Shown here: positions 7,345 through 63,945 of the stretch, one piece after another
How positions within the stretch are numbered: position 1 is the stretch's first letter
Layout of the letters: every line of letters begins with the position of its first letter
Source: Rhododendron vialii
Lineage: Eukaryota; Streptophyta; Magnoliopsida; Ericales; Ericaceae
DNA length: 64,000 nucleotides
Reading direction: 5' to 3'
Assembly (NCBI RefSeq): GCF_030253575.1
Contig: NC_080568.1
Location: 28,540,001 to 28,604,000 of the forward strand
Notes under the pieces: generated by a model
What the model was told of the DNA's origin: nothing
Databases searched by the model: none
What the model saw: the letters and a program-made list of their open reading frames with translations, nothing else
Made by a program: the position numbers and the translations under genes

Positions 7345-7359
7345 GCGTTTTGGAAAAAA

Positions 7360-7824
7360 GATTAAATTCTTTCTGCCGGTGGCGGAAACCATGGTTTTCC
7401 GCTACTGACATTTTGGGGCTCACCACACTTTTATTTTTGTAATCTAAATTGTTTATTTTGTAGGGCCCGCAAATTAGTATGTCCAGCAAAAAAAAAAGCT
7501 CGATTGGACACTAGTAGATAATTTAAAATTTGAATTTTGGTTTATAAAATGAATGGTCTAATTCTGTCATTAATTTTAAAAGTTAAATTGTACGTAATGT
7601 GGACGGCAACTAAAGAGGTATCAAGACAAACTGTCATTTTGTAAACCAAAATTTAAATTTTGATATATCTATCGATATCCAATCAAGATGATATTTTTGC
7701 TTGGACATACTACTGATCTGCGAGCCCTACAAGATGAACAGTCAAATTAACAATAAACACAAGACCCACAATGGCAGTAACGGAAAAATCACCAGTTTGC
7801 CGCCGGCGGAAAGAATTTTTAATC
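7360..7824. mobile_element. Foldback element with ~200-base inverted arms
   Basis: The left arm starts GATTAAATTCTTTCTGCCGG and the reverse complement of the right arm starts GATTAAAAATTCTTTCCGCC. Both continue through GTAGGGCYCGCA, GTATGTCCA.GCAAAAA and AAATTT.AATTTTGGTTTA. It lies only 15 bases from the 6988-7344 element. No transposase remains. Its target-site duplication could not be fixed by eye. Confidence 0.7.
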
Positions 7825-8386
7825 TCAAAGGAAAATGTTTTATTTCTCATGGGTCACCAACCGCATTTAAGAAATCATTGTAATTTTTTCTCAACCAGAA
7901 TAACTTTAATTTACTCTTTTATTTTGAAACTTTTCTTTGGCTTACGACAACCTCAATCAATTTAGGAGCCTTCAATTTATGAAAGTTGAATCTACGAGCT
8001 CAAAGCTAGGTGTAAAACAGAATCCTTACTTGCTGTCATATTTTTACTCGACCAATCCCTTTTGTTTTTGAGACAATTCACTATTATAACTATCCCCCTT
8101 GACTCATTTCGACTATTTGTTACCATTAGAGATTGTGGGACTTATTAATTGGTTCAACCCTTTATTAAACGTATAATTGATAATGGCAACATACTAGTAT
8201 GATTTTTCGTTCTCTTTCAATTGCGGTATGATTTCTTAACAATTTGTTTAGTCAGAATGCATTTTTTCCCATTTGATCAATAGACATTTTGGGCAATCTG
8301 TATAACGTGCGTAGAACGCTAAGATCAATAATACTTAAAGATAGGATATTAGAATGTGGATATCAAAAAGTGGAATGTCAAAATCT

Positions 8387-8603
8387 GGCCTTTTTTCGTT
8401 TGGTAACTTTGGGTATTTTAGTTTTGGTAGTGGGTGAAGAGAGAAATAGGGTAATGATTGGAGAGATGGACAATGAGTAAAGAGAGATAGAGAGATAAAT
8501 GAAATTAATAATTTGATAAATAAGGTAATAATTGAAAAAAGATATAAAGCAATAATTGAAAAATAAAATTAAAACAAAGTAAAGATGAGAAACGAACAAG
8601 GCC
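8387..8603. mobile_element. MITE with GGCCTTnTTCGTTT termini
   Basis: GGCCTTTTTTCGTTTGGTAA at the left faces GGCCTTGTTCGTTTCTCATC when the right end is reverse-complemented. The interior is purine-rich (AGAGAGA, AATTGAAAA). This TIR type is widespread in plant genomes and often assigned to hAT-like MITEs, but no clean 8-base duplication is visible. Confidence 0.5.
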
Positions 8604-9111
8604 ATTGTACTTTTCGATGATGTGACAAGTTTTGTATAACCAGATAACCTCTTCTATCGGCTTTTATTCTTGGGATAAGACTAGTGGGAACTATTTATTC
8701 CATGAAATACTACTAAACGTCTATACATGTATGATATGCAATATTATTCTATCCCATGTTTAAACGAGCACATCATAAGGTTGGGGGTGCACCGGGTTTA
8801 GTCGAAAACGGAAGATACATTATTGAGGCAAAGATCCCATGTGAAATTGATTAACCAAAGTATGAAACAAATGCAGCCCAAATAAAGGTGCATGTGCACT
8901 GGTTAAGGTTGCGGCGTTTTGAGGGATTTTCATTTGTATCGATCCGACCCAATATCGACAATTTGAGATTTTCCAACCAAACAAGTCCTATTGATTAAAT
9001 TGCGGATTGAAACAAACCAACGTGTTGGGTAGGTTTTGTACTGATTTGTGAATTGGACCAAACCTATGAAAACAAAAACAAGTCTGTTCATACCTATGAT
9101 GCTAGCTGAAC

Positions 9112-9255
9112 GACTTCGGTGTCCCGGTTATTTTGGGGACACCGTAATTTTTGGCATAACAAAATCATTACAAGCATAACCAAACCAATTATATGTATAA
9201 CCAAGCCATAACAAGGCATAACCAAGGCATAACCAAAACTCCGATCCAACGGTTG
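9112..9255. mobile_element. One-ended copy of the GGTGTCC MITE family (copy 2)
   Basis: CGACTTCGGTGTCCCGGTTA followed by TTTTGGGGACACCGTAATTT and GGCATAAC repeats matches the left arm of the 841-1156 element. The matching right end is not found, so this is a partial copy next to the CATAAC array. Confidence 0.6.
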
Positions 9256-9324
9256 AGATTGTGCCACGCATGCTAGTTTGACCAAAAAAAATCGGTCTAA
9301 CTGGTCATCCTAACAGGTCATCGA

Positions 9325-9668
9325 ATTTGGCATAACAAAACCACTAAATAGCATAACAAGTAAACCCAAAAAGGCATAACACGTGAATTTAATGGCATAA
9401 CATGAGTATAACATTTCCTAAACAGGTATAACATTAACCCAAAATAGGCATAACAAAACCATTAAATGACATAACTGTTGAGTTATAACCATGTGGGCAT
9501 AACATAAACCATTGAAAAACATAACACAAAACCAATGACAAGTATAACAAAAACCATAAAAATCATAACAAAAAGCAAAAAGTAAAAGAAGCATAATATG
9601 ACCACATAAAAGCATAACAATAACCTCTAAAAGGTATAACAACAACCTCTAAAACCATAACAATACCC
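9325..9668. repeat. Degenerate tandem array of CATAAC/TATAAC motifs
   Basis: About 17 copies of the core (g)(c/t)ATAAC recur at irregular spacing of roughly 15-25 bases for nearly 350 bases, each followed by variable A/C-rich spacer. The same motif fills the interior of the GGTGTCC MITEs, so the array probably arose by expansion of MITE interior sequence. Confidence 0.6.
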
Positions 9669-9825
9669 ACCTGTCATTTTTTCATTTATTTTTTTATTTG
9701 AAAATGTTTAACCACGGTTAAGTGGGAAAAAAATTTAAAATGTAAATGTGTCTTGCGATTATGTTCAACAGTAAAATGTAATGGACCTCAATAAATCAAT
9801 TTATTTTAATAATCAAGGCCGTTAA

Positions 9826-10910
9826 TTTGGTTGTTCTTGTTGATTTAGTTATTTATGAAAATTTTGGGTTCCATCCGGATTATGAAACTCTTTGATTGGT
9901 ACAAAAATTCAACATAAGAATGATAACTTATGTCCGATAAAGTTTGTAACGATAAGCAATTTACTTATTTTTTTTGCAAGAATGATCTAATCTCTCTTAC
10001 GGAAATGATAGACGGTTCCGATTTTAAAAAATTGATCAAGCGGTCATCGAGTTGTGAATTATAGGACTTTAATACCTACGTAAGCATTGAATGTGTTCCG
10101 ATCGATGATCACTAAAGTTGGCAAAAATTATAGAATCGATAAGATGTGCAATCTTAACGGTTTAGATCGGTCATCAGAAAAAATTATTGAATAGCTTCCT
10201 TTAAAATCTATATGTTGAATTTCATTGTTTCTAAACTAAGGTCTTATGCTTTTGTGTAATGTACAATACTCATACTATCGCAACACAATCACAATGATCG
10301 ATACCGTTCAGTTTGTTTTGCTTGGTGTTTTAATTGTTCTCGTAAATTTTTTTGGGACTACGGGTTTAGAAAGCCCTTTTATTGGGACGTAGATTCATTA
10401 TTATAATGACATTTTACATCCGATCAAGTATGTATTGATAAGAAATTTAATTCATTTTTGGCAGAAGTATTCTAATCTTTGTTACCTAAAGTATAGACGG
10501 TCCCGATTCGGAAAAAAATAGCCGAGGCGGCCCAAGAGTGGTGCAGTATGGGACTTTAACGCTTCTGGAAGCACCAAATGTATTCCGATTATGTGGTTGT
10601 CGACATCCGATTATCACCGATTTTGGTGACAATAATTAAATGAACAAGATGTTAAATCCCATCGGTTTAGATCGAGCATTTGAAAAAAAATTAGTTGCCA
10701 ACCACCTTTAAAATCTATACATTACACTTTTTTGATTATGAACCAAGATCTTGTGCTGTAGTCTAATGTACAGTAGTCACACAACCGCATCACTATCACG
10801 ACGATCGATACCGTTAATTTTATTGTACTTGTTGTTTTAATCATTCTCATAAAATTTTGGGTCTAACGGATTTTGAAAACCTTTTCATCGGAATGCAGAT
10901 TCAATATTGT
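9826..10910. repeat. Tandem repeat, unit about 475-507 bases, two full copies and part of a third
   Basis: The marker CCGTT followed by a TTGTTYTTGTTGNTTTA-like run recurs at 9829, 10304 and 10811, giving spacings of 475 and 507. Other shared marks in order: a TCCGATNAAGT stretch, a run of the type AGACGGTNCCGATT, GGACTTTAA, GGTTTAGATCG, CCTTTAAAATCTATA, and an AATGTACA.TA motif. The copies are well diverged. No coding potential is evident. Confidence 0.7.
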
Positions 10911-11099
10911 ATGTTCGATTTTCCGATTATGTATGCAATTGGTCCTGCCCATACAAGGAGAATCCCCCAAAATTTTGAAATCAGTTTTACGGCAAAAATT
11001 TTGGGATCCGGATCCTCTACGAGGATTTCTCTGTTAGGATCATGTGATGATTTTAATATGGAGCTGCCAACACATTAATGAGAAGATCGAAGGGCCCAA

Positions 11100-11264
11100 A
11101 ACAACTCATCTTTCTTTTTGACAAAACACGCTGCTGTAGGGAATAATTGTCTAACGGAGAAAAAACCCTACGTCCTAATCTTCTTCTTCTCCGTTGCTCT
11201 CAGTCCATATCTTCGTCCCCGTTCTGGTTCTACCTTCTGTTGTGGATCGCTGCTTCGTGACAAG
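11100..11264 (+). other. Putative non-coding first exon of the HMG-box/Ulp1 locus
   Basis: A TC-rich leader-like stretch (CTTCTTCTTCTCCGTTGCTC) ends in a good donor, GACAAG/GTAACC, at 11264/11265. The next convincing same-strand acceptor with a start codon is at 13897/13898. This makes it a candidate 5' UTR exon separated by a 2.6 kb leader intron. It is not supported by coding sequence. Confidence 0.35.
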
Positions 11265-13897
11265 GTAACCATTGCTACTGTAAATAGGGTTTCGTAGGGT
11301 TTTTTTCATTTTCCTGCACTTTTTTTTGGTTTCTTTGTTCATTAGAATAGTTAGGGTTCTCCTGCAATTCATCCGAATAGTTTTGTGCGGCCGTGTGTTT
11401 CGATCTTCGAGGCTTACCAACAGAGCTTAATTATAGTAGTCCAGTAGTCCTATAATTTTGATCCTGGTAAGAATATTGGTCTTTTATTTTGGGTTTAAAA
11501 GAGAAGCATTTTCAGGATTGTTTTTAGAACTTCTGGGTTAAAAGTATAGCATTTGCAAGTATCTATGTTTGCCGAGGCTTGATAACAAGAGAGAGGGTGT
11601 GATGTCCTTGAGGTTATAAGATTACCAATTTTGACGTTCTGACTCTTAATTCCTTGGAGATTAATAAAAATGCACATAAATTGATCCGAACAATTATTTT
11701 TAAAAAAAAACTGTGACCCACACCTGCATTATTCTGCTGCACTAGGAGCATTTTTTTCCACTGCCACCAGTCGGGCTAGGGAGTAGATTGAAACAACTCT
11801 TCGGTTAAGCAAATCTAGGAATTTAGTCGGTTTTTAAGTGCATAAACAGTGCTGTTTATTAGAAGGCTGCAATAATTTCTTAACAGCTGCGGTTTCTTTC
11901 GACCAAGAAAGAAGGAACTATTACTGCGCCTGGACTCTGGAGGATTGCATTTGTGGGCTCGGCTCTGGTCCAATTCTTCCCCTTTAATCTGCTGTCCAGT
12001 TTCGACAATTTGTGGGCTCTTTCCGAGCCCATAACAATAATCGGAACCATTCACTTTTTAGAGTCCGTCAAAAACAGATTGTGTAAAGGCTTATGGCACT
12101 CACAGTCACTTAAACCTTCTACCTTTCCAAGATGTCTTGATCATCTTCTGTTCATTGTAGTTTAAATATTATTTCGTGTTAGTTTGGTCATGATTATTTA
12201 CAACAGCTCCCTTGATTTTTCCTAGATAATAACTACCCACCACCTGATTCAATTAAGTAACTTATGTTTGACAAAGATATGTTTAGTCGGCTGGATATAA
12301 TTGGTCAGGAAAAGAGGAATTTTTCTGTAGATTATCTCAGTTTTCATGTGCTAGATTCCTTAACATATCCTTTCCTGTTACAAATGCAAAAATCTGATTG
12401 ATTTTGGGCGGTTGACTTGTAGAACTAGACAAGTATCTATCAGTGGCCTAAAACCTACTACAAAGTAGGAATAGTTTGCTTTGCTACATCCTTAAGTCTC
12501 ATGTTCGATTTTCTTTTTCAGTAACTTTTGAAGCCATCTCACCACAACACGCAAGCATGTGAAAAGATTGTGAAAAGAGCTGTAAGAATTAATTCGAGGT
12601 ACACGCAAGCTGACTAGGGAAAGATAAAAAGTCTGCAAGCACCTTATTATAAAAAAAAAATTTAAAAAGGAAGTCTGTAGTAGTTTATCCCGTGGAGAGC
12701 TCTATTTGGTTCGACCAATTGGAGAAAGCAACAAACGTTAATAGAAAATGAGGAATTTGCTTGCCGAGCAAAAAAAAAAAAAATGAGGAATTTGCTAACG
12801 TAGTGATTAGCTAAGCATTTTCAATTGTCAAAGCAAGGACAGTAATTAACTGATTAAATTTTGGTGTGTTTGACTTCATATTTATGGATCGGAAAAGTCC
12901 AGGACAACAATTTGTTTAGAACCATATGATGTATGTGTGTATGCATGCATCGGACAATTCTGAATACAACTCTTTCCATAACTGTGTTCCTAGCAATGCT
13001 TTTTTGGATTTGTGTGAGCCGCACACATTAACGTGAGTGTTGTGCATGCATTTTTGTTTCTTTACTGTTAGTTCAACCATTTGTTTCTTTAGTGTTAGTT
13101 CAACCATACAAGCCAGGCTAAGATGTTAAGCAACAAAGAGTGGTCTAATAAGTAAAACGATTCATAGTATTATAGTAAGACAACCCACTACATTGATATC
13201 CAACCGATTGCTGTACACATCCTAACTTACCTTTCAACTTGAGGTTGGATGCAATCCGGTCGTGAGTTGGGCATTCAATTGCTATTGAAAAAACATGCCC
13301 AAATTTTAATGGAGTGGGTTGTCTCTTTGTGGCAAACTTGGAAAGACTGAAATAAGAAAAGTTTTAACAACTTAAATTCTAATGTTTACTCTAGCTACAC
13401 GAACACCATTGCCTATGCCTCTGAAATGAATAAGGCATTCAAGTCCCCTCTTCACAATGTGGTAGTATATTTAGTTACCACTTTGAGCTTCATGGATTTG
13501 CACAATTTGAGTAATCCTAGAAACTTACATTTGGAGATGAAATGCTTTGTTACTATTATGTTTTATCATATGTAGGCAGATGGTTATTTCTTTTTGCTAA
13601 CTTTTGAGAATGTCACTAAAAGATTTGATCTCCATCCAGTTTATTAGGAAGGGGTAGCCCTAAGGCACGAGCAAGAAGGTCCCCTCGGGACTATTCAATT
13701 CTTTGTAACTATAAGGGTGTTTAATAACTAGTGACTCGTGCCACTAGCATGTCCTTGCACTAAATAGGGATTCTATTTCCAATTAAAGTTGTACGATTCC
13801 ATTTCCAATTGATGATTAAACATTTTAAGCTGATTACATTTTCATCTCGATATTATGTTTGATTGTAACACGGCCATGATGAATTATGTATTTTCAG
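11265..13897 (+). other. Putative 5' UTR intron or intergenic sequence
   Basis: No protein-like frame. It contains a small SINE-like scrap near 12590-12620 (TTCGAGGTACACGCAAGCTG) and the tiny poly-A insertion at 12745-12796. Otherwise it is AT-rich and featureless. Confidence 0.4.
12745..12796 (+). mobile_element. Micro-retroposon: 8 bases plus poly-A between 17-base duplications
   Basis: AAAATGAGGAATTTGCT occurs at 12745-12761 and again at 12780-12796. Between the copies lies only TGCCGAGC and a run of A. This is the footprint of target-primed reverse transcription with extreme 5' truncation. Confidence 0.6.
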
Positions 13898-13898
13898 C

Positions 13899-16540
13899 AT
13901 GACAGACGAGATCATTCAGAAGTATGCTTTGAAAGGAAGGGTGCCATCGGCCTTCATTCTATATAAGTATTCCTTGTTAATAAAAATTTAATTCATTTAA
14001 CACTGATTTGGTGTTTAATTATGTATTTTCCTATGACAATGTTTGACTACTACTTTATGTTTGTGCAAGTAGCAATGAAACCATAGCCAATCTAAAAGAT
14101 GCTGGTACCTTAATAACAAATCAGGTAAAATTATAATTTTAACTTAACATTTTGTCATCTAATTGCATCTATTTGATCTAATGTTGATGATGACGAATGA
14201 TCATTGGTGCATGATTTGGTACGTATTGCAGACGAAGAGGGACATTGGTGAGCAATGGAAAAACCTGTCGAACGAACACAAGCAAAAGTACAAAGATTTG
14301 GCTAAGTTGGCCAAAGAGGAACTCACCAAGCATAAAGCTGTACTTCCGCCAAAACCCAAAAAAGTGAGTACAAATTGTTGGAACTTGTCTAGGTGAACAT
14401 GATTTGACCTGATTTTGGAATGCCAATTTATTTGATGATGTTTGTTAAATTTGCAGAAAAAGATACAGAACAGTATTTCCTTAAAGTCCATCGTTAGAAT
14501 AGTACAAAAGTTAAGCCCAGATCAACGCCGTGCTATTCAGCTTATTGGGTTGGGTGGAATATTAGAATTGAGGTGTACAGCTCTTAACCATCCGCTATGT
14601 AATTGGTTGGTGCATAAATTTGATCTTGTTTCTCGTTCACTTACTGTTCATGGGCGGACATTCCTTCTCACTGATTCCCATGTTCATGAGTGCTTGGGCA
14701 TTAATGCACAAGGCAACCTTATTGAGTTGGAGGGAAATACGTCGGTAGAATTTTCAGAAGTTTATAAAAACCTTGGAATGACGAATGGGGTAGTCCAACT
14801 GAAAGAGTTGAGAGAGTACTTGGAGAAAACGGAGGAAGTAGATGATGTTTTCAAAAGGAAATTTGCCTTGTACATCTTGGGATGTTTTTTATGCCCAACC
14901 ACAAAGCCGGGTGTTACTTGATCCCTTATTAATGTTGTTAGTGATGTTGCGGCAATGCCCAATCAGAATTGGGCGAACTTGACCTTAGACTTCTTATGCA
15001 AGGGTATACTGGACCAACGCAATAAGGATCATACACAACCAAGCGGGTGCCTATTCCTCCTGGTGGTAGGTATTGAGTGATTCTGCATTAACGCATTTCA
15101 TATTCCTTATTTCACTTTGGTTATTTATTTGTTATGCATTATTACTTTAATTGTCTCATAATGCAGGTTTTCTACTTGGATCGTGTCTCTCCAAGGGCTA
15201 CAGTTATGCCTTATGTTCGAAAATTCCCTTCTTTGCTTGCTTGGGGTGATTCTGAAATTAAGAGTGTCTTGCATCGGTTTGACCAAATTGGAGGTTATGA
15301 CAGGGAGGGGGTGGTGGTTCATTTTACACTGGAGGAAAAAACAAGTGGCAATGAATGCGGTGTGTCCCAAATTTCAACTGGAGATGTAACTGTGATGACA
15401 AATACTCTTGCAACTATAGCAGGTCTTTTGTTGCGTCAAAATATATTAATGGCGAAGCACCTTGGCTCTGAAACGCCTTCTAAGCTGCAACCACAAATGG
15501 GTCAAGAAATGGACCTAAACAATGTCCACCTTCAAGGAGAATTCTCTGCCCTCCTCGCAGGAGTACATGCATGTCAATTATAAAATAAGATTTCAATTGG
15601 TCTTGAATCATGATTGTTTACCTTTGATCGTAGATATACATACCAACAAATGATCGTGTGAGCTACTGGTTTTGCATCAAAATAGACATGGGCATCCATA
15701 TGGTTTATATTTTTGATTCAAAGCCCGCTACTCGATCCAATTTGTTTCGTAAGAAACTGACACAACAAGTGGTATGGCACACCTCGTTTAGACCATGTTT
15801 TACGATATGCCAGGTTTGTATTCTAACTACTTGTTTTTTCGATTAGCTGGAGGGATTACATCGCGCGTTGCTCTTCCAATATGGAGAGCTCTATCAGGTT
15901 GATGTCACGAAGTTTAACATTGCTAATGTTGAAAAGCAACCGTTGCAACATGAGGACGGGTAATTTATTAAACATAATCTTATTTTAATGCTTGGTTTTG
16001 GCAATTCAACTACTCTTTTATTTTTTAAGGCTTCACTTTTATGCCTATGAGACTAATAATTATGAAAATGTATCCCCGACGTATTCGTATCTTTTTTTTA
16101 GGTTTTGCCATATTGCCGTATCCGTATCGTGTCGTATCCCGTATCCGTATCTGTGCTTTATAGGTTACTTGTGTTAATTGTGTTACTTGCGTTTAAAGTG
16201 GTTTACTTTATTCCTTTCTGCACATTTTTAGGTATGATTGTGGGCTATTTGTTATAAAATTCATGCAAGGGTTCAATTTCCCATCCGGTGTACACAAGGT
16301 TAGTGCTCGTAAAGTAATATCGTTATGTTGTATTTAATTGGTTGTGATAGTGTTGGATTTCTAAGCTAGCTTTGGGTTTTGTAGATGGACAATACCGAAA
16401 GGCCAAGGTTGTTATTGGAATTGTGTGGTGACAAGAATAATCAGGATGCCTTGGAGGTTTTAAAAAAATTTGAGGCATGGAAGGCAGAAAGAGGTAAAAC
16501 GGGCTTTGTGTACGCAGGTGGTCACGTGATTCGTATATAA
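13899..16540 (+). pseudogene. HMG-box + Ulp1/SENP (C48) protease fusion locus, with in-frame TGA
   Basis: Exons: 13899-13966, 14073-14124, 14232-14363, 14457-15065, 15167-15562, 15634-15813, 15847-15959, 16232-16298, 16385-16540. All junctions are GT-AG and phases close, giving 590 codons. Residues about 14-75 form an HMG-box (VPSAFILYNNET, then KRDIGEQWKNLSNEHKQKY, a K-rich tail). Residues 85-419 match plant proteins that precede Ulp1 domains (NHPLCNWLVHKFD, VHGRTFLLTD, QNWANLTLDFLC, VFYLDRVSP). Residues 420-530 are a Ulp1 peptidase core: SYWFCIKIDMGIHMVYIFDS, then QHEDGYDCGLFVIKF with Gln513 and Cys520. Codon 239 (14919-14921) is TGA, so a straight read stops at 238 residues. The His expected before Trp431 is Tyr430. 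Known members of this class often come from MULE-type transposons. Likely a decaying or non-proteolytic gene. Confidence 0.75.
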
Positions 16541-17274
16541 CTAACAATCTGTAGGCATATTTTGTAAAGGTTAAGTTTTTTGGGGGCCTGATTTTATATG
16601 GGTTATCAAGTATCGTTCCGTATGGTAGTTTTAACTTTTTAGGGTATTCCACTTTGTATTATATGGCGCATGATTGGAACTTAATGCTATGTTGTTTCGT
16701 ATTTATTTTGGTGCAATATTTTGGTTATGTAATTTCCTTGTTCCATATGGATGATCAAACTTAATGGGTATTCATTAATGCCTGCATGATGGGAAAGAGT
16801 TACCTCACTACTTTCGAATACTTATCGGGGATTCGCACACATGGTTATCCAAATTCCTGATTATACTATCATTACCTGTTCTTTCCATGTGAATCAATTG
16901 GCAAAGATAGTGTAATAGGAATTTGGACAACTTGGGGCAGGACCGGCAGGTTTTTGGAGGAGTTGGAAGATTACAAAATAGTAGGTAGCTGTTTTTTTTT
17001 TTTTTTGTCTGTTTTCGTTTTGCAAATCCAGGAGCTGCTTTTGTTTAGGTAGAGTAAGTTTATTGGTTCATGTGAGTTGTATACAGAGCTTTTGGCAGTT
17101 CATAGGAAGGGAAGTTCAGGGGGTGGCCATGGAAGTGTGTTAATGGAGTATGAGTTTTTCCCGGCTGGGAAAAGTGGGTGCAAAAGAGCTACTAGCACTT
17201 GTTCCAAGGCTGTGGAATTCGGGTTATTACCACCAGAAGAAGATTCAGTTGCAGTTGGAATTCGGGTTATTATC
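16541..17274. other. 3' flank of the HMG-Ulp1 locus, no gene seen
   Basis: AT-rich, with a T-run near 16992-17006. A 21-base sequence beginning TGGAATTCGGGTTATTA is present twice, at about 17212 and 17257, next to the broken end of the RPN9 fragment. Confidence 0.5.
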
Positions 17275-17607
17275 ATAATAGCTGGCATACACAGATGGGT
17301 CGATGTCAGTCATAGTGTCAAGCGTACTCTTCCCGTCTTCAAGAAGTTTCTTGCACTCTTTTTGGCTGCCTTTCTCAAGATTAAAGATAGCAATTTGCAT
17401 CTTTATAAAAAGAATTGGTTCCTCAATGCGCATTTCTCTAGTAGCCTGAAGCTTTTCTATCACATCTTCCAGGTAACTAATGGCAGCATCTTTCTCTGAA
17501 TACTGCCGAGAAACAATGACGGCGAAATGTGCAAGCTTGAGAAGATTGATCTTGGTCTCAAAATCAGTGATGAAATTATGATATAACTGAATGAGAGCAT
17601 CACCAGC
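17275..17607 (-). pseudogene. RPN9: RPN9 (26S proteasome lid subunit) gene fragment
   Basis: The minus-strand frame reads AGDALIQLYHNFITDFETK, continues through INLLKLAHFAVIVSRQYSEK and KKLLEDGKSTLDTMTDIDPS, and ends at SVYASYY. This is an undamaged 111-codon stretch of plant RPN9 (PSMD13), a PCI-domain subunit of the proteasome lid. It starts right after a strong acceptor (polypyrimidine tract then TCTTCAG), so it was copied as DNA with its intron edge. After YASYY the family sequence should go on with WVSSQYHK, but here the frame runs into unrelated sequence and stops by 17245. No other RPN9 exon was found. Probably a partial duplication or a transposon-captured piece rather than a working gene. 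Confidence 0.8.
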
Positions 17608-18205
17608 CTGAAGATAATGAGAAAGAAACAACTGTCAAGCACAATCAATGCATCTTGTTGTGTTTAAGCTTTTCCCAGTCAAACACTAGCAGAACACATG
17701 TAGCAGAACCTATGCTACCTGCTGAGTCATACAGAAAGACCGTACAATGAAACTAATGTCCAACCAGAAAAAGAACACCACATATGAGCCGTCACCCGGC
17801 AGTGCGAAGAACAGCTTAGCAAAATAAAAAGCACCACCAATCATCAAAAGATTCGAAACTAATCATTTTTCCAATGAAAATGCAACATTCGCTTGTGATA
17901 CAACTCTGCCACCCGCCATTCTCCTATGATGCTATTGTCATCAACATGCAGGATCAACTCATTTGGTCTAATCTTGCCGACCAAAACAGAAAAACTAACT
18001 CATTCTAAATGTGCACAAGCCTTTGAATATGTGGACAGCGACATCCAAGAGATAACCAGTAGCAAACCATCCTATTAACAAGCTTTACAGGCTTTTCAGT
18101 TTCAAGCAATAGAAAATTCATATTAAAGAGCTTAATCAGCTGACAATGAAAATGAGAAGATCCACATAATTTTATTTGAAAGAATAGAAGTTCCATTTGA
18201 TACAC

Positions 18206-18207
<2 letters not shown>

Positions 18208-18269
<62 letters not shown>
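18208..18269. repeat. (GA)n microsatellite
   Basis: About 30 uninterrupted GA dinucleotides. Frames through it give artificial Leu-Ser or Arg-Glu runs. Confidence 0.95.
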
Positions 18270-18270
<1 letters not shown>

Positions 18271-19286
18271 GTGCTAATGACATAAATCAGCTGCACTTTC
18301 ACCATTTTCAACTCTACCATTCAACTCGTTCCATCTATCAGATCATAAGAACGAAATACCATACGGAATACAGAGAGGTTTTTCGTTGATCCCCGACTTC
18401 TAATCTAATCTCTGAAAGACCATATATGTAAGCTAACGTTGCTTTAAGTGAAGAAAACACTACAATTATTGAACAAAAATTTAAATAGAACCATCCGATA
18501 CATATAAGCCAAGCCAATCACTGACCAAGAGTATTGGTTCCTAATGGAAACTAAATGCCTACAGTAATTTACAGTCTGTAATCTCCACAAACTCTCGCAT
18601 TGTGATCCCAGAGAAGATGAAATTCGGGGAACAGACGACGGACCAAACCAATGTTTCATTTCAATTCCTTTCAGGAATGTTGGAAAACAGCCTGTATGTT
18701 GGAAAGCAGCCAGTACGCACCTTCCTTTTTTGGACACCAGAAAACACCAAGAGCCTGATAGGGAAAAGCAAAATAAACTTTGAACATGAGCCAAAAGTAA
18801 GAAAGAAAACAGAACTTGCACCTACCATGGTTCGTTCACAAAGCACATGAAGCATGTAAATGCATAATCAAAAGCATGACATAAGCTTGCAACAAAGTCT
18901 AGGGGGCATACATTTAGTTCCGCACAGCAAGATTGAAATGAATCAAATTTGGAGCAAAAGAAACCTCTAGTACAACCCCACAAGTTCTGGCAGAATTAAT
19001 ATAATAATCTGAAAAACTGGAATCTTTTGACCAGCAGCACTACTTAAATCCCAACAAAGAACTCACATAAAACCCAAGAAATCCTATTAAAACCATGTCC
19101 AACAATTACTGAGATAGCAAAAAGACTACCAATTCCAAGTTCTCTATTAAAACCATGTTATCCTCTCCTTTTCATCAAGTTCTCTATCCTATTTTCTGTT
19201 GAATGTATATTATCAATCTTGTGTTCCCCTTTGTTACAACACCTTTCTGCACTTTGAAGTGAGCTTCATTTTCCACCTCAAAGCCC

Positions 19287-19320
<34 letters not shown>

Positions 19321-21166
19321 TTGCAATTAGGCACAGAATTTCTATATTTGTTGGTCTCCTTATTTAAATTCACCAACATACTTCTGCAAATTACTTGCTG
19401 AAATGCACGTCAATCAGAAGGATGTTTTTGACACCCGTATACTGCATAATTACAAAAGTGAAAACAACAGAATTTGGTGGCCAAGAATATGCACATAATG
19501 GCAAAAGTTTATTGAGCAAAACAAACGTATAGGCTAGTAAATAAATCAAACACAATCAACCCACAGCTAATTCATTAAAGATTGCCACAAATCTTTTAAA
19601 TCGAAGAGAAATAATCAACACTGAAGCTGATAAGCAAATCCATGGCTTTTAACAAAATATGCACCAGGATAGCTTTAGAGCAGTACCTCATGAGAGGTAT
19701 CACACAAAATTTGAATTAAAATAATGGCTATATGGTTATATTATACAAGATCAGTATCCAACAAAGAAAATCGGAAAAAAAACATGCAAATGCATTATTT
19801 AGTGAATAATGAGCTAACAGTGTTTCTAATGCAGATGCATTAGTCTACCAAGCAGATGAAACCGACAATGGAAAAACATGTGTCGATAGTAATATTGTTC
19901 AAAGTTCAAACCCTATCCCCTAATGTTCACATCAAATGATCAAGGATGCCTCAAATTTTAGATCTGCAGAGAGGGGAAACTACAAGTAGATGGATACAAG
20001 CATAACAGAACTCCAATCACATACATAAGCTATAGAACAATGCTGAAGACCACTTGATTGGAGAATGGAATGAGTTTCAGGATGCCAAATTTTGGGCAAG
20101 GGATCGGCATTATTGCAAACATGACCATTGGCTGTAACAGTTTTGTTGATCGGTTCTGAAAAGTTCTGGCTACTGTATTTCCTTTGGTTTACATAACTGA
20201 AAGCAGGATAACCTATCTTAAAGCCATTCCCATCCTTGAGATGTGGGAAACTGCTGAACATGGTGGAGCGCCAATGCATAATTTTCACTGCCCAAAAAAA
20301 AGACAAGCATTAACATACAGTATCTAGTACAAAAAGGCTCCGTTTGGGTAGGTGGGGACTTCAAATTTGATTGCTTGCTTATGGATTTTGACATTGAGTT
20401 TGGTAGCCTTATCATGATTGCATTTGAGAAAACTGTATAATCAAAAGATTTGAAATCCTCCCTGATAAGGATTCAAGTCATTATCAACTCTTCTACCTTC
20501 AATCCATGTTCCCCTTTAGTTCACGAGCCACCTACCACTGAACATTAATATTTGCAGCAATTGGACATAGAAACCCCACATTTTTGAAATCCATATCTAT
20601 CCAAATGGAGCCTAATTGTTTTCAATACTTGCAAAACTACTAAGAGTTGAAAGGAAAAAAACAAAAAACAAAGAGAGACGAAATCGAACTGCTAAGTGAG
20701 CTAAATATGATTATCAAAGGCAACCCAATGCTAGAAACATAACTGAGGACCGCTTTTCTAGCAACCTCTTATGCATGAACAAAGAATTTGCAAAACGTTG
20801 AACGAACGCATATCACTGCAGATAAATCAATTATTTCTGCATTGCCTTAACTGTGGTACAGGGTTTTAAATCACGGTATCAGGAAATGCAACGGTATCGG
20901 TGACATGGCCGTATAACGGTCGATATTGGTCCGTATCGGACTGTATCGGCCAATACGTAAGCAAATAAAGGTATCGTTTTCACATTGTTTAAAATCCAGA
21001 GTGGCAGACTAACCTGAATCTCATTCTGAAGGTCAGTAACAGGAGAATTCTGACAATGGCATTGTATAGAAAATTAAAGCACTAGAAAAGGATTTAAACC
21101 TCCTATGGATTTTGAGTTTTCGGTGTCTGTCTTTTGGCAGGTATATTTGATTTGTTCCCACTTTTA

Positions 21167-23104: not shown

Positions 23105-23305
23105 TCGGTGCTGTGCATTGAGGTGCATATATAGTACCATGCTGCACACCTCCGAGCAGTCGGATCGTGCATTCGACGGCTCGGATCTCATCTCAGCAAT
23201 GAACGGCTTCCGATCGTCTGAGATGAGATCCAAGCCGTCGAATGCAAGATCCGACGGCTCGGAGGTGTGCAGCACGGTGCTGCACACACCACTGCATAGC
23301 ATCAT
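23105..23305. mobile_element. GC-rich foldback element
   Basis: The arm starting ACCATGCTGCACACCTCCGA (23136) is repeated inverted ending at 23278, through GCATTCGACGGCTCGGATCT and CATCTCA, around a loop of about 23 bases. Weaker pairing extends outward to about 23105 and 23305 (GGTGCTGTGCATTGAGGTG against GATGCTATGCAGTGGTGTG). Confidence 0.7.
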
Positions 23306-25028: not shown

Positions 25029-26655
25029 ATGGTTACTGATTCGACCACCAACGCATCGATTCCCATGGCCGCATCCAACTCCAAGGATTTCGCCAAGAAA
25101 AAGAGGGTAAATCTCTCTCTATTCGATTTTTGTTCTTAATTGCATTATAATTCACTAGGTTTTGTATCATCGGATTGGAAAAGAAATTAATTTTCGTTGA
25201 TTGTCATGTTTTTCAATTTCTTTTGGGGGTTTTTTCAGGTGAATAGGTCTGCCAAATTGAAGCAGTGCAAGCTTGATGCTCGTCGTGAGCAGTGGCTTTC
25301 GCAAGGTATTTTAAAGATCTCTCGTTTTCTCTCTTTGGATTAAAATCTGAATACTCTAATGCACTGATAAGTTAAAACTAACACGCAGCCACACACATAT
25401 ATGCACACATATATATAGAGATATTTTTGGGATAATCGGGTTTCACGAGAAATATCGTGATTTGGGCGTTTTGGATTTATCTTTGAAAAAGAATCGATTT
25501 GAGGCCTGGATAAGGACGATTTTTCAACAATAATAAAAATTACTAAGACCGGAGCTAATAATTATGAAACAATTGGTAGAAGTTTTTATTTATTTTTTAT
25601 TCTAAGATAGGTTTGTTCATGTATGCGTGTGGTAAGTTTGGGGTCAGATCTCCTCCTGTTTTCATGGATCAGTTTGGTTCAGTTTGGGATCCACGCACAG
25701 ACGATCTGAACTGAATCAGTCTGGTGCATGAATCTTGAACTGGGTTTGTATTTTGGTAGTTTTTCATATATTTTGATAGTTGTGTTATGTGATTTGGGAT
25801 GTATGTGTCTATTGAGCAGTGAAGAACAAGGGGGGATTTGGTGATTCGTCGGGTCATCCACCATGCAGTGAGAGTCAGTTGTCGATGGAGAATTTAGAGG
25901 TAAAGCCCAGAGGCGAAAAGGAGGGAGGGTCGATATACCACCATTACAGTGATTCTGATTCGGCTTCCAACAGCCCCACAAGTCACACCAGTAGCGTATT
26001 GGGCAGTAGTAGTAATGTGTCTGGAACGATTTTTACTGGTAGCGGCGGTAGCAGCAGCAGTAGTGGGGGAAGTTGCTCTGGAAGCGTTACCGGTGAGGAT
26101 GAAGACGATGATGGGTGCTTGGATGACTGGGAGGCGGTTGCCGATGCTTTAGCGGTGACTAATGAGAAGCAGGAGCAAGATAAACACAGTTTTGATAATC
26201 AAAGTGTGGTTCCATCAGTTTCTCCGCCAGAACTAAAGCCCGAGGAGCGAGTAGAAGGGAATGTACAGAAGGGTCAACCCAATTGCAGGGCTTGGAAGCC
26301 TGATGATGCTTTTCGCCCTCAAACTCTGCCCAATCTGTCGAAGCAGCTCAGTTTCCCTATGAAGTCGGGCAGGCAATACGGTTGTCCATGGGGATGTAAG
26401 AATGTTGTATCAGTGCCAACTACTTGTCCCATATGCTGTGAAGATTTGGACTATACGGACTCTAGGTTTCTCCCTTGCTCTTGTGGGTTCAGGCTTTGCC
26501 TTTTCTGCCACAAGAGGATTCTTGAAGACGATGGGCGTTGTCCTGGATGCAGGAAGCAATATGACGATGAACCCATCAAGGGCGAGGCAACAATAGATGG
26601 AGGCAGTCTGACATTCAAGTTGGGTCGCTCTTGTAGCATGATCACGAGGTCTTAG
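25029..26655 (+). CDS. RING finger protein, CNOT4-type C4C4 RING
   Basis: Exons 25029-25106, 25239-25305 and 25820-26655 join in phase to give 326 residues. The N-terminus is Lys-rich (DFAKKKRVNRSAKLKQCKLD, then ARREQWLSQ). The middle is low-complexity Ser/Gly followed by an acidic patch (GEDEDDDGCLDDWEAVADAL). The C-terminus, residues about 251-297, has CPICCEDLDYTDSRFLPCSC, then LCLFCHKRILEDDGRCPGCR, the eight-cysteine pattern of the NOT4/CNOT4 RING, which recruits E2 enzymes for ubiquitin transfer. The RRM found in true CNOT4 is absent, so this is a stand-alone plant relative, not the CCR4-NOT subunit itself. The start is the first ATG after the leader; a second in-frame ATG follows at codon 13. 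A TATA box and a CT-rich leader lie upstream. Confidence 0.88.
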
Positions 26656-63597: not shown

Positions 63598-63945
63598 CTA
63601 TTGGTACCGATGGTACCATAGGGAAAATGCACCGACGGCCACCGGACGGCCGATCCGAGCCGTCCAAAAATTTTAAAAAATAAAACTGAGTGGCCATACG
63701 CGAGAATGAATGGCATCCGAGATGTGTAGGGTACTTAATCCGAGCACCCCTTTTTCGTGTATATATGTATATACGTGTATATACATGAAAAAGGGGTGCT
63801 CGGATCAAGTACCTTACACACCTCGGATGCCATTCATTCTTGCCCGCGCCCACTCGGTTTTATTTTTTAAAATTTTTGGACGGCTCGGATCGGCCGTCTG
63901 GTGGCCGTCGGTGCATTTTCCCCATGGTACCATCGATACCAATAG
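63598..63945. mobile_element. Near-perfect palindromic foldback element, arms about 170 bases
   Basis: The left arm from 63598 (CTATTGGTACCGATGGTACC, then GGGAAAATGCACCGACGGCC) is repeated inverted ending at 63945, through GGACGGCCGATCCGAGCCGT, CCAAAAATTTTAAAAAATAA, GAATGAATGGCATCCGAG and CGAGCACCCCTTTTTC. The arms meet near 63770 with almost no loop, in a TATATGTATATACGTG centre. Differences between arms are few. Confidence 0.85.

Follow-up and report, generated by a model that had tools for sequence, protein, structure and literature searches.

The window analysed here is a 64,000-nt stretch of the Rhododendron vialii genome. Nine exon segments on its forward strand, between 13899 and 16540, can be joined into one reading frame. 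When we re-spliced them, the nine exons, GT-AG edges and matching phases proposed in the initial annotation were all reproduced: a GT donor and an AG acceptor were found at 8/8 internal junctions, and the phases agreed. The HMG box starts in exon 1 (13899-13966), continues in exon 2 (14073-14124) and is completed in exon 3 (14232-14363), which presumably holds helices 2-3 of the box and also encodes a basic tail. Exon 4 (14457-15065) encodes a middle domain resembling PMD and DUF1985, and the remnant of an exon 5 lies at 15167-15577 (it stopped at 15562 in the earlier model). A C48 peptidase region follows, with its His/Asp part in exon 6 (15634-15768), its Gln in exon 7 (15847-15959) and its catalytic Cys, within the motif YDCG, in exon 8 (16232-16298); exons 7 and 8 were placed by the Peptidase_C48 match and by splicing. 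Exon 9 (16385-16540) adds the C-terminal tail and the stop codon. Exons 1 and 2 are the same in two near copies found elsewhere in the genome, here called copies C and D, and exon 9 is also open in copy C.

The chosen frame contains one internal stop; the two remaining forward frames contain 31 and 41. In 1000 mononucleotide shuffles the mean number of internal stops was 37.4 and the minimum was 14, and the coding signal of the spliced frame is far beyond chance. The frame is nevertheless not the single open one that had been claimed: whichever version of the model is used, codon 239 is a TGA (14919-14921), which the initial annotation left unmentioned and which copies C and D lack. The length of 590 codons and the numbering of Gln513 and Cys520 could be reproduced exactly, but only if the TGA is counted as a codon. 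Ten GT-AG pairs in frame could splice it out (54-180 nt), and every one of them would take out no fewer than 18 middle-domain codons, in a region alignable to relatives. The boundary of exon 6 also had to be moved. Ending at 15813, as first annotated, it gave 28.2 bits against Peptidase_C48, versus 37.8 bits when it ended at 15768.

Related sequences were searched for in the same genome (13 contigs, 532.6 Mb; the window lies on C12). The PF02902 profile, with 100 candidates scored, revealed C48 sequences in at least 17 places. We fetched 16 stretches of 10 kb for them, the 17th place (C7:37007959) falling within the stretch L015. A clear middle domain (E of 4e-15 or better) was present in five of the 16 stretches (L010, L011, L014, L022 and L024), and the C48 stood without a clear one in the remaining 11; a middle-domain match in L020 was dropped (E 1.8). 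When 120 of 351 candidates from a search with the middle domain itself were scored, at least 118 stretches matched. Among the matches listed, six spanned almost the whole of exon 4 with 78-95% identity, two each on C1, C4 and C2, and three of these six had no stop; the window itself matched at 99%. Intact copies of the family exist elsewhere in the genome, and the window copy is not one of them.

The HMG box was confirmed. Exons 1-3 matched the Pfam HMG_box profile at 6.4e-11 and 43 bits, above the curated cut-off of 25.4, and the best relatives of solved structure were the HMGB1 boxes (2.5e-8). Distant relatives have the box too. The scores were 38.7 bits for copy C, 35.9 for L024, a divergent locus on C13, and 26.3 for the spliced HMG exons of copy A (the element containing L010), the last being barely above the cut-off. 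The three HMG exons measure 68, 52 and 132 nt in the window and 62, 46 and 135 nt in copy A. Their phases, 2-0-0, are identical in the window, copy A and L024, the third lineage with such exons, and in all three they stand ahead of the same middle domain. As the middle domains of copy A and L024 are only 36% and 28% identical to that of the window, the identical phases show the HMG fusion to be old. An HMG-like exon was also found upstream in 5/5 of the fetched C48 stretches with a clear middle domain (one of them broken, by a stop in L014). From the shared phases and these five cases, the fusion is both old and recurrent, and it is absent from some C48 copies within the fetched stretches. In L009, HMG exon 1 lies on the strand opposite the C48. 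The order of HMG box, middle domain and C48 is thus a genuine architecture.

In the initial annotation, the segment after the HMG box was likened to domains that precede Ulp1 modules in plants. This is a fair description, but the profile matches are all below their cut-offs. Exons 4 and 5 of the window, joined with X at the stop, matched PMD at 6e-4 and 19.5 bits, copy A at 24.8 bits (1.5e-5) and copy C at 21.4 bits; the cut-off is 34.9. DUF1985 was matched by copy A (3.1e-5, 24.4 bits), again below its cut-off of 35.1, and this Pfam profile gave no match in the window or copy C. The middle domain of L024 matched no Pfam family. None of three reversed or shuffled decoys of the middle part of the window matched PMD (0/3). 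A single-sequence AlphaFold model of exon 4 was set aside at a mean pLDDT of 37.6.

Exons 6-9 matched Peptidase_C48 at 2.5e-9 and 37.8 bits (cut-off 20.7), covering only profile positions 86-183 of 217; copy C scored 50.8 bits. Searching by sequence with E up to 10 found no solved relative of this part of the window. The C48 core that had been claimed stands as far as the profile match, the Gln and the Cys are concerned. The site Asp is also kept, with the Gln at seven residues before the Cys (C-7). However, the position of the catalytic His (15664-15666) is occupied by Tyr, in the motif VSYWF, which the initial annotation did not mention. The Tyr-Asp spacing is 17, as for His-Asp in the solved Ulp1/SENP chains. 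In copy C the catalytic position holds His, and His was found in 8/8 matches to a pattern that permitted Tyr among the 16 fetched stretches (six of the window type, plus L019 and L021 of another type). The divergent L016 and L024, missed by the pattern and read by eye, have His as well. Thus, the complete His-Asp-Cys catalytic set is not present in the window copy. We dropped the idea that a Gln at C-7 is displaced from the C-6 of the solved Ulp1/SENP chains, C-7 being found also in L001-L005; in copy C the Gln is at C-8.

The junction drawn between exon 5 and exon 6 did not hold up in the relatives, where these exons are not neighbours. Between the counterparts of window positions 15577 and 15568, copy C (C1:39.93M) and L028 (C1:5.63M) both contain an additional 1.86 kb, and in the window the two blocks of homology share 10 bp at 15568-15577. 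Intron 5 (71 nt), with its donor at 15563, therefore sits on the scar of a deletion. In copy C, exon 5 lies within an open frame of 454 aa with tandem units of about 150 bp. The deletion took the remainder of exon 5 and the exons read as the N-terminal half of the C48 domain, which is consequently absent from the window. These exons of copy C are our own reading, and Pfam leaves that half unscored. As copies A and C likewise show no profile match over that half, its loss is judged by the deleted exons. L029 has no alignment to the window past 15577, and the splicing of exons 6-9 left out this stretch and copy D.

Copies C and D are free of stops from exon 1 to exon 4 and in what corresponds to the exon 5 remnant. 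For these four exons together with the retained part of exon 5, dN and dS were 0.0135 and 0.0405 between the window and copy C, 0.0187 and 0.0405 between the window and copy D, and 0.0072 and 0.0144 between C and D. The resulting dN/dS ratios are not firm, because the three sequences are too similar and the changes too few. The substitution rate in plants is near 6.5e-9 per site and year. The window copy is young: at this rate, its dS of 0.04 corresponds to roughly three million years. It could encode at most 238 residues, that is, the HMG box and a part of the middle domain, and it is most likely a pseudogene.

We also compared the surroundings of the gene with those of the near copies. Between 9108 and 17259, the window aligned with copy C (C1:39919000-39935900) in four blocks of 92-98% DNA identity; segments 11207-11262 and 11415-13231 had no alignment to copy C. 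We take 9108-17259, on the plus strand, as the extent of a dispersed element in the window. Its left terminus, which carries a hairpin, begins at the identical base in the window and in copies C and D, and the outer flanks are unrelated. The right end of the window element is cut off, because copy C continues 269 bp past the point matching 17259. An alignment of copies C and D extends over 9,932 bp at 96% identity. When a 154-bp piece of the terminus was used as the query, at least 91 matches were obtained in the genome (40 of 737 candidates scored). Ten of the 91 listed reached the end of the query, the window, C and D included, and many of the remaining ones were short inverted pairs resembling small non-autonomous elements. 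A palindromic MITE-like repeat at about 835-1144 in the window has the same terminus as the element at 9108, and no target duplication was found at it in the range tested. An overlapping direct repeat of about 0.6 kb (9808-10405 and 10293-10911, 69% identity), upstream of the gene, is common to copies C and D.

No target duplication was found at the window, C or D. Transposase sequences gave no convincing match in copies C and D (best E 0.6) and none at 1e-3 in the window. Six short pairs of inverted repeats were found in 9000-20500, none of them bracketing the gene as a terminal repeat would. Given the absence of a target duplication and a transposase, the window subfamily is non-autonomous, decayed or moved in some other way.

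The link to MULEs holds for the sister family only. L010 (on C4) and L011 (on C9) fall in copies A and B of an element of about 12.3 kb. These two copies, on different contigs, share 99.4% identity across their main alignment block of 11,950 bp. An exact target duplication of 9 bp surrounds element B; element A has a 9-bp flank match at shifted offsets only. On the strand opposite the Ulp1-type gene, element A has a frame of 786 aa with FAR1 (2.8e-18), MULE (5.3e-26) and SWIM (2.6e-4, above the cut-off) domains, and we take FAR1-type MULEs of this kind to be Jittery-like. A remark in the initial annotation, that Ulp1 domains sit in many MULE-derived plant proteins, agrees with the recurrence of this architecture in the genome. 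At the left edges (position 1306 in L010 and 2174 in L011), the 9-bp flank match of A overlaps bases that B shares as the end of the element, as though the ends used by A and B differed slightly. Element A also contains tandem units of about 110 bp downstream of its C48 gene (L010, about 7755-8624) and a 174-bp direct duplication inside this gene (L010, 5735-6081). Pattern searches of a viral contig collection and of a genome contig collection returned 12, 17 and 106 stretches, none of which was confirmed as a relative, and the NCBIfam profiles gave one weak, unrelated match only.

Next to the cut right end of the element, the window contains a truncated duplicate of an RPN9/PSMD13 exon (17248-17634, minus strand; PSD13_N 2.5e-26). 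The same 120 aa occur without a change at C7:16938880, in a frame 182 aa long. A C-terminal piece of RPN9 had no match in the window. The surroundings of the element are gene-rich by their Pfam matches and include a TORTIFOLIA1-type N terminus (1-513, minus), a zf-RING_4 protein (25816-26652, plus) and APC8/CDC23 (50997-52367, minus). Self-palindromic stretches occur at 63598-63945, 23133-23281 and 7359-7825, with 90%, 86% and 68% identity to their own reverse complements.

Taken together, we think that the window probably holds a recently dispersed and disabled copy of a multicopy gene of mobile type, the intact members of which encode an HMG box, a PMD/DUF1985-like domain, a linker of tandem repeats and a complete Ulp1/C48 domain. 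The domain order, the exon phases, the dispersal, the damage and the location of the sister family's gene on a MULE whose other strand encodes a FAR1-type transposase were observed directly. It is unlikely that the copies arose instead as a dispersed host family that spread through ordinary duplication, one member of which was captured by elements A and B. The missing target duplication and transposase in copies C and D would fit such a history, and MULEs are known to capture Ulp1 and PMD sequences. Against it stand three copies that start at an identical base between unrelated flanks, and a shared terminus that recurs in at least 91 places, often as short inverted pairs. It is quite improbable that the locus is a working host or domesticated gene, encoding an HMG-box protein with a non-catalytic C48 and a TGA that represents allelic variation, is bypassed or stems from misassembly. 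A strong coding signal with a single internal stop, Pfam matches exceeding their cut-offs and dN/dS values of 0.33 against copy C and 0.46 against copy D, both from few changes, speak for this gene. Three independent lesions speak against it, namely the TGA, the 1.86-kb deletion including the N-terminal half of the C48 and the loss of the catalytic His, as do the near-identical copies scattered on other contigs.

Exons 1-3 and exons 4-9 might be two adjoining genes, one for an HMG-box protein and one of the Ulp1 type, with separate transcripts. Retention of intron 3 would indeed close an HMG-only frame shortly past exon 3 (frame 14163-14396). We nevertheless regard two transcripts as very unlikely: HMG exons of identical phases precede the middle domain in both diverged lineages, an HMG-like exon lies upstream in every fetched stretch whose middle domain is clear, and the first 107 codons of exon 4 include no Met. 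The initial annotation had envisaged a functional protein directing desumoylation to chromatin, and this finds no support at the locus. The site retains Asp, Gln and Cys, as an active, chromatin-tethered SUMO protease made from the window locus would require, whereas the stop at codon 239, the deleted N-terminal half and the replaced His make such a product extremely improbable. The case also shows that a convincing model of nine exons may turn out to be a defunct transposon-type copy, one junction of which is an artefact.

By analogy with known systems, the intact protein is likely to be an accessory factor of its transposon, akin to KIU and VANC. Its HMG box would bind or bend DNA and keep the protein on chromatin, and the middle domain and the C48 may counteract silencing of the element. 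The C48 would cut SUMO-type conjugates, or might merely bind them. As a tentative proposal, the intact members could form a separate class of transposon-coded anti-silencing factor, KIU/VANC-like with an HMG box of its own and a complete domain of SUMO-protease type, present in at least three lineages of this genome and on FAR1-type MULEs. If so, DNA bending by an HMG box, a PMD/DUF1985-like fold and desumoylation would be combined in one protein of a mobile element. A Ulp1 module fused to a recognisable DNA-binding box suggests a route by which such proteins reach chromatin, and the intact copies of the family allow direct testing.

KIU (Kaonashi ULP-like) genes are C48 genes of non-TIR MULEs, and in KI-MULEs the KIU gene lies in reverse to the transposase, which is mudrA (PMC6117577, PMC13317346, PMC2528002). 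Elements bearing KIU are reported there to undo methylation (PMC13317346, PMC6117577, PMC2528002, PMC5735166). The VANC proteins of VANDAL elements contain DUF1985 and variable tandem-repeat regions and direct the loss of methylation at their own elements (PMC5735166). The precise function of Ulp1 domains on plant transposons is described as unknown (PMC13317346). PMD-protease fusions and the capture of PMD by MULEs have been published (PMC7156037, PMC5418596). Such fusions, MULE-captured PMD and MULE-borne Ulp1 genes were described before, and the HMG box would be the added feature. An HMG-box version of such proteins was not found in the accessible portions of the open-access literature, with subscription journals and plant protein databases outside the scope.

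Compared with KIU-bearing MULEs, the sister elements A and B are alike in that their C48 gene lies on a MULE, in reverse to the transposase. They are unlike KIU in the HMG box at the head of the protein and in the FAR1-domain transposase of element A, which takes the place of the mudrA of KI-MULEs; DUF1985 was seen in copy A only as a match below the cut-off. VANC proteins share the sub-cut-off DUF1985-like region of copy A and the variable region of tandem repeats in copy C. The present proteins differ from them in their HMG box and C48 domain, and the anti-silencing role proposed here would follow from analogy with VANC. The likeness to the PMD proteins MAIN and MAIL lies in a weak PMD match, every instance of it below the cut-off, and the available sections on these proteins mention no HMG box (PMC7156037, PMC5418596). 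With FAR1-type MULEs, element A shares the FAR1, MULE and SWIM domains and copy B the 9-bp target duplication, whereas the sister elements carry in addition the gene with HMG box, PMD-like domain and C48. Finally, HMGB-type proteins resemble the window box through its above-cut-off HMG_box match, the HMGB1 boxes being its best solved relatives; unlike those small chromatin proteins, a single box here heads a protein of transposon type.
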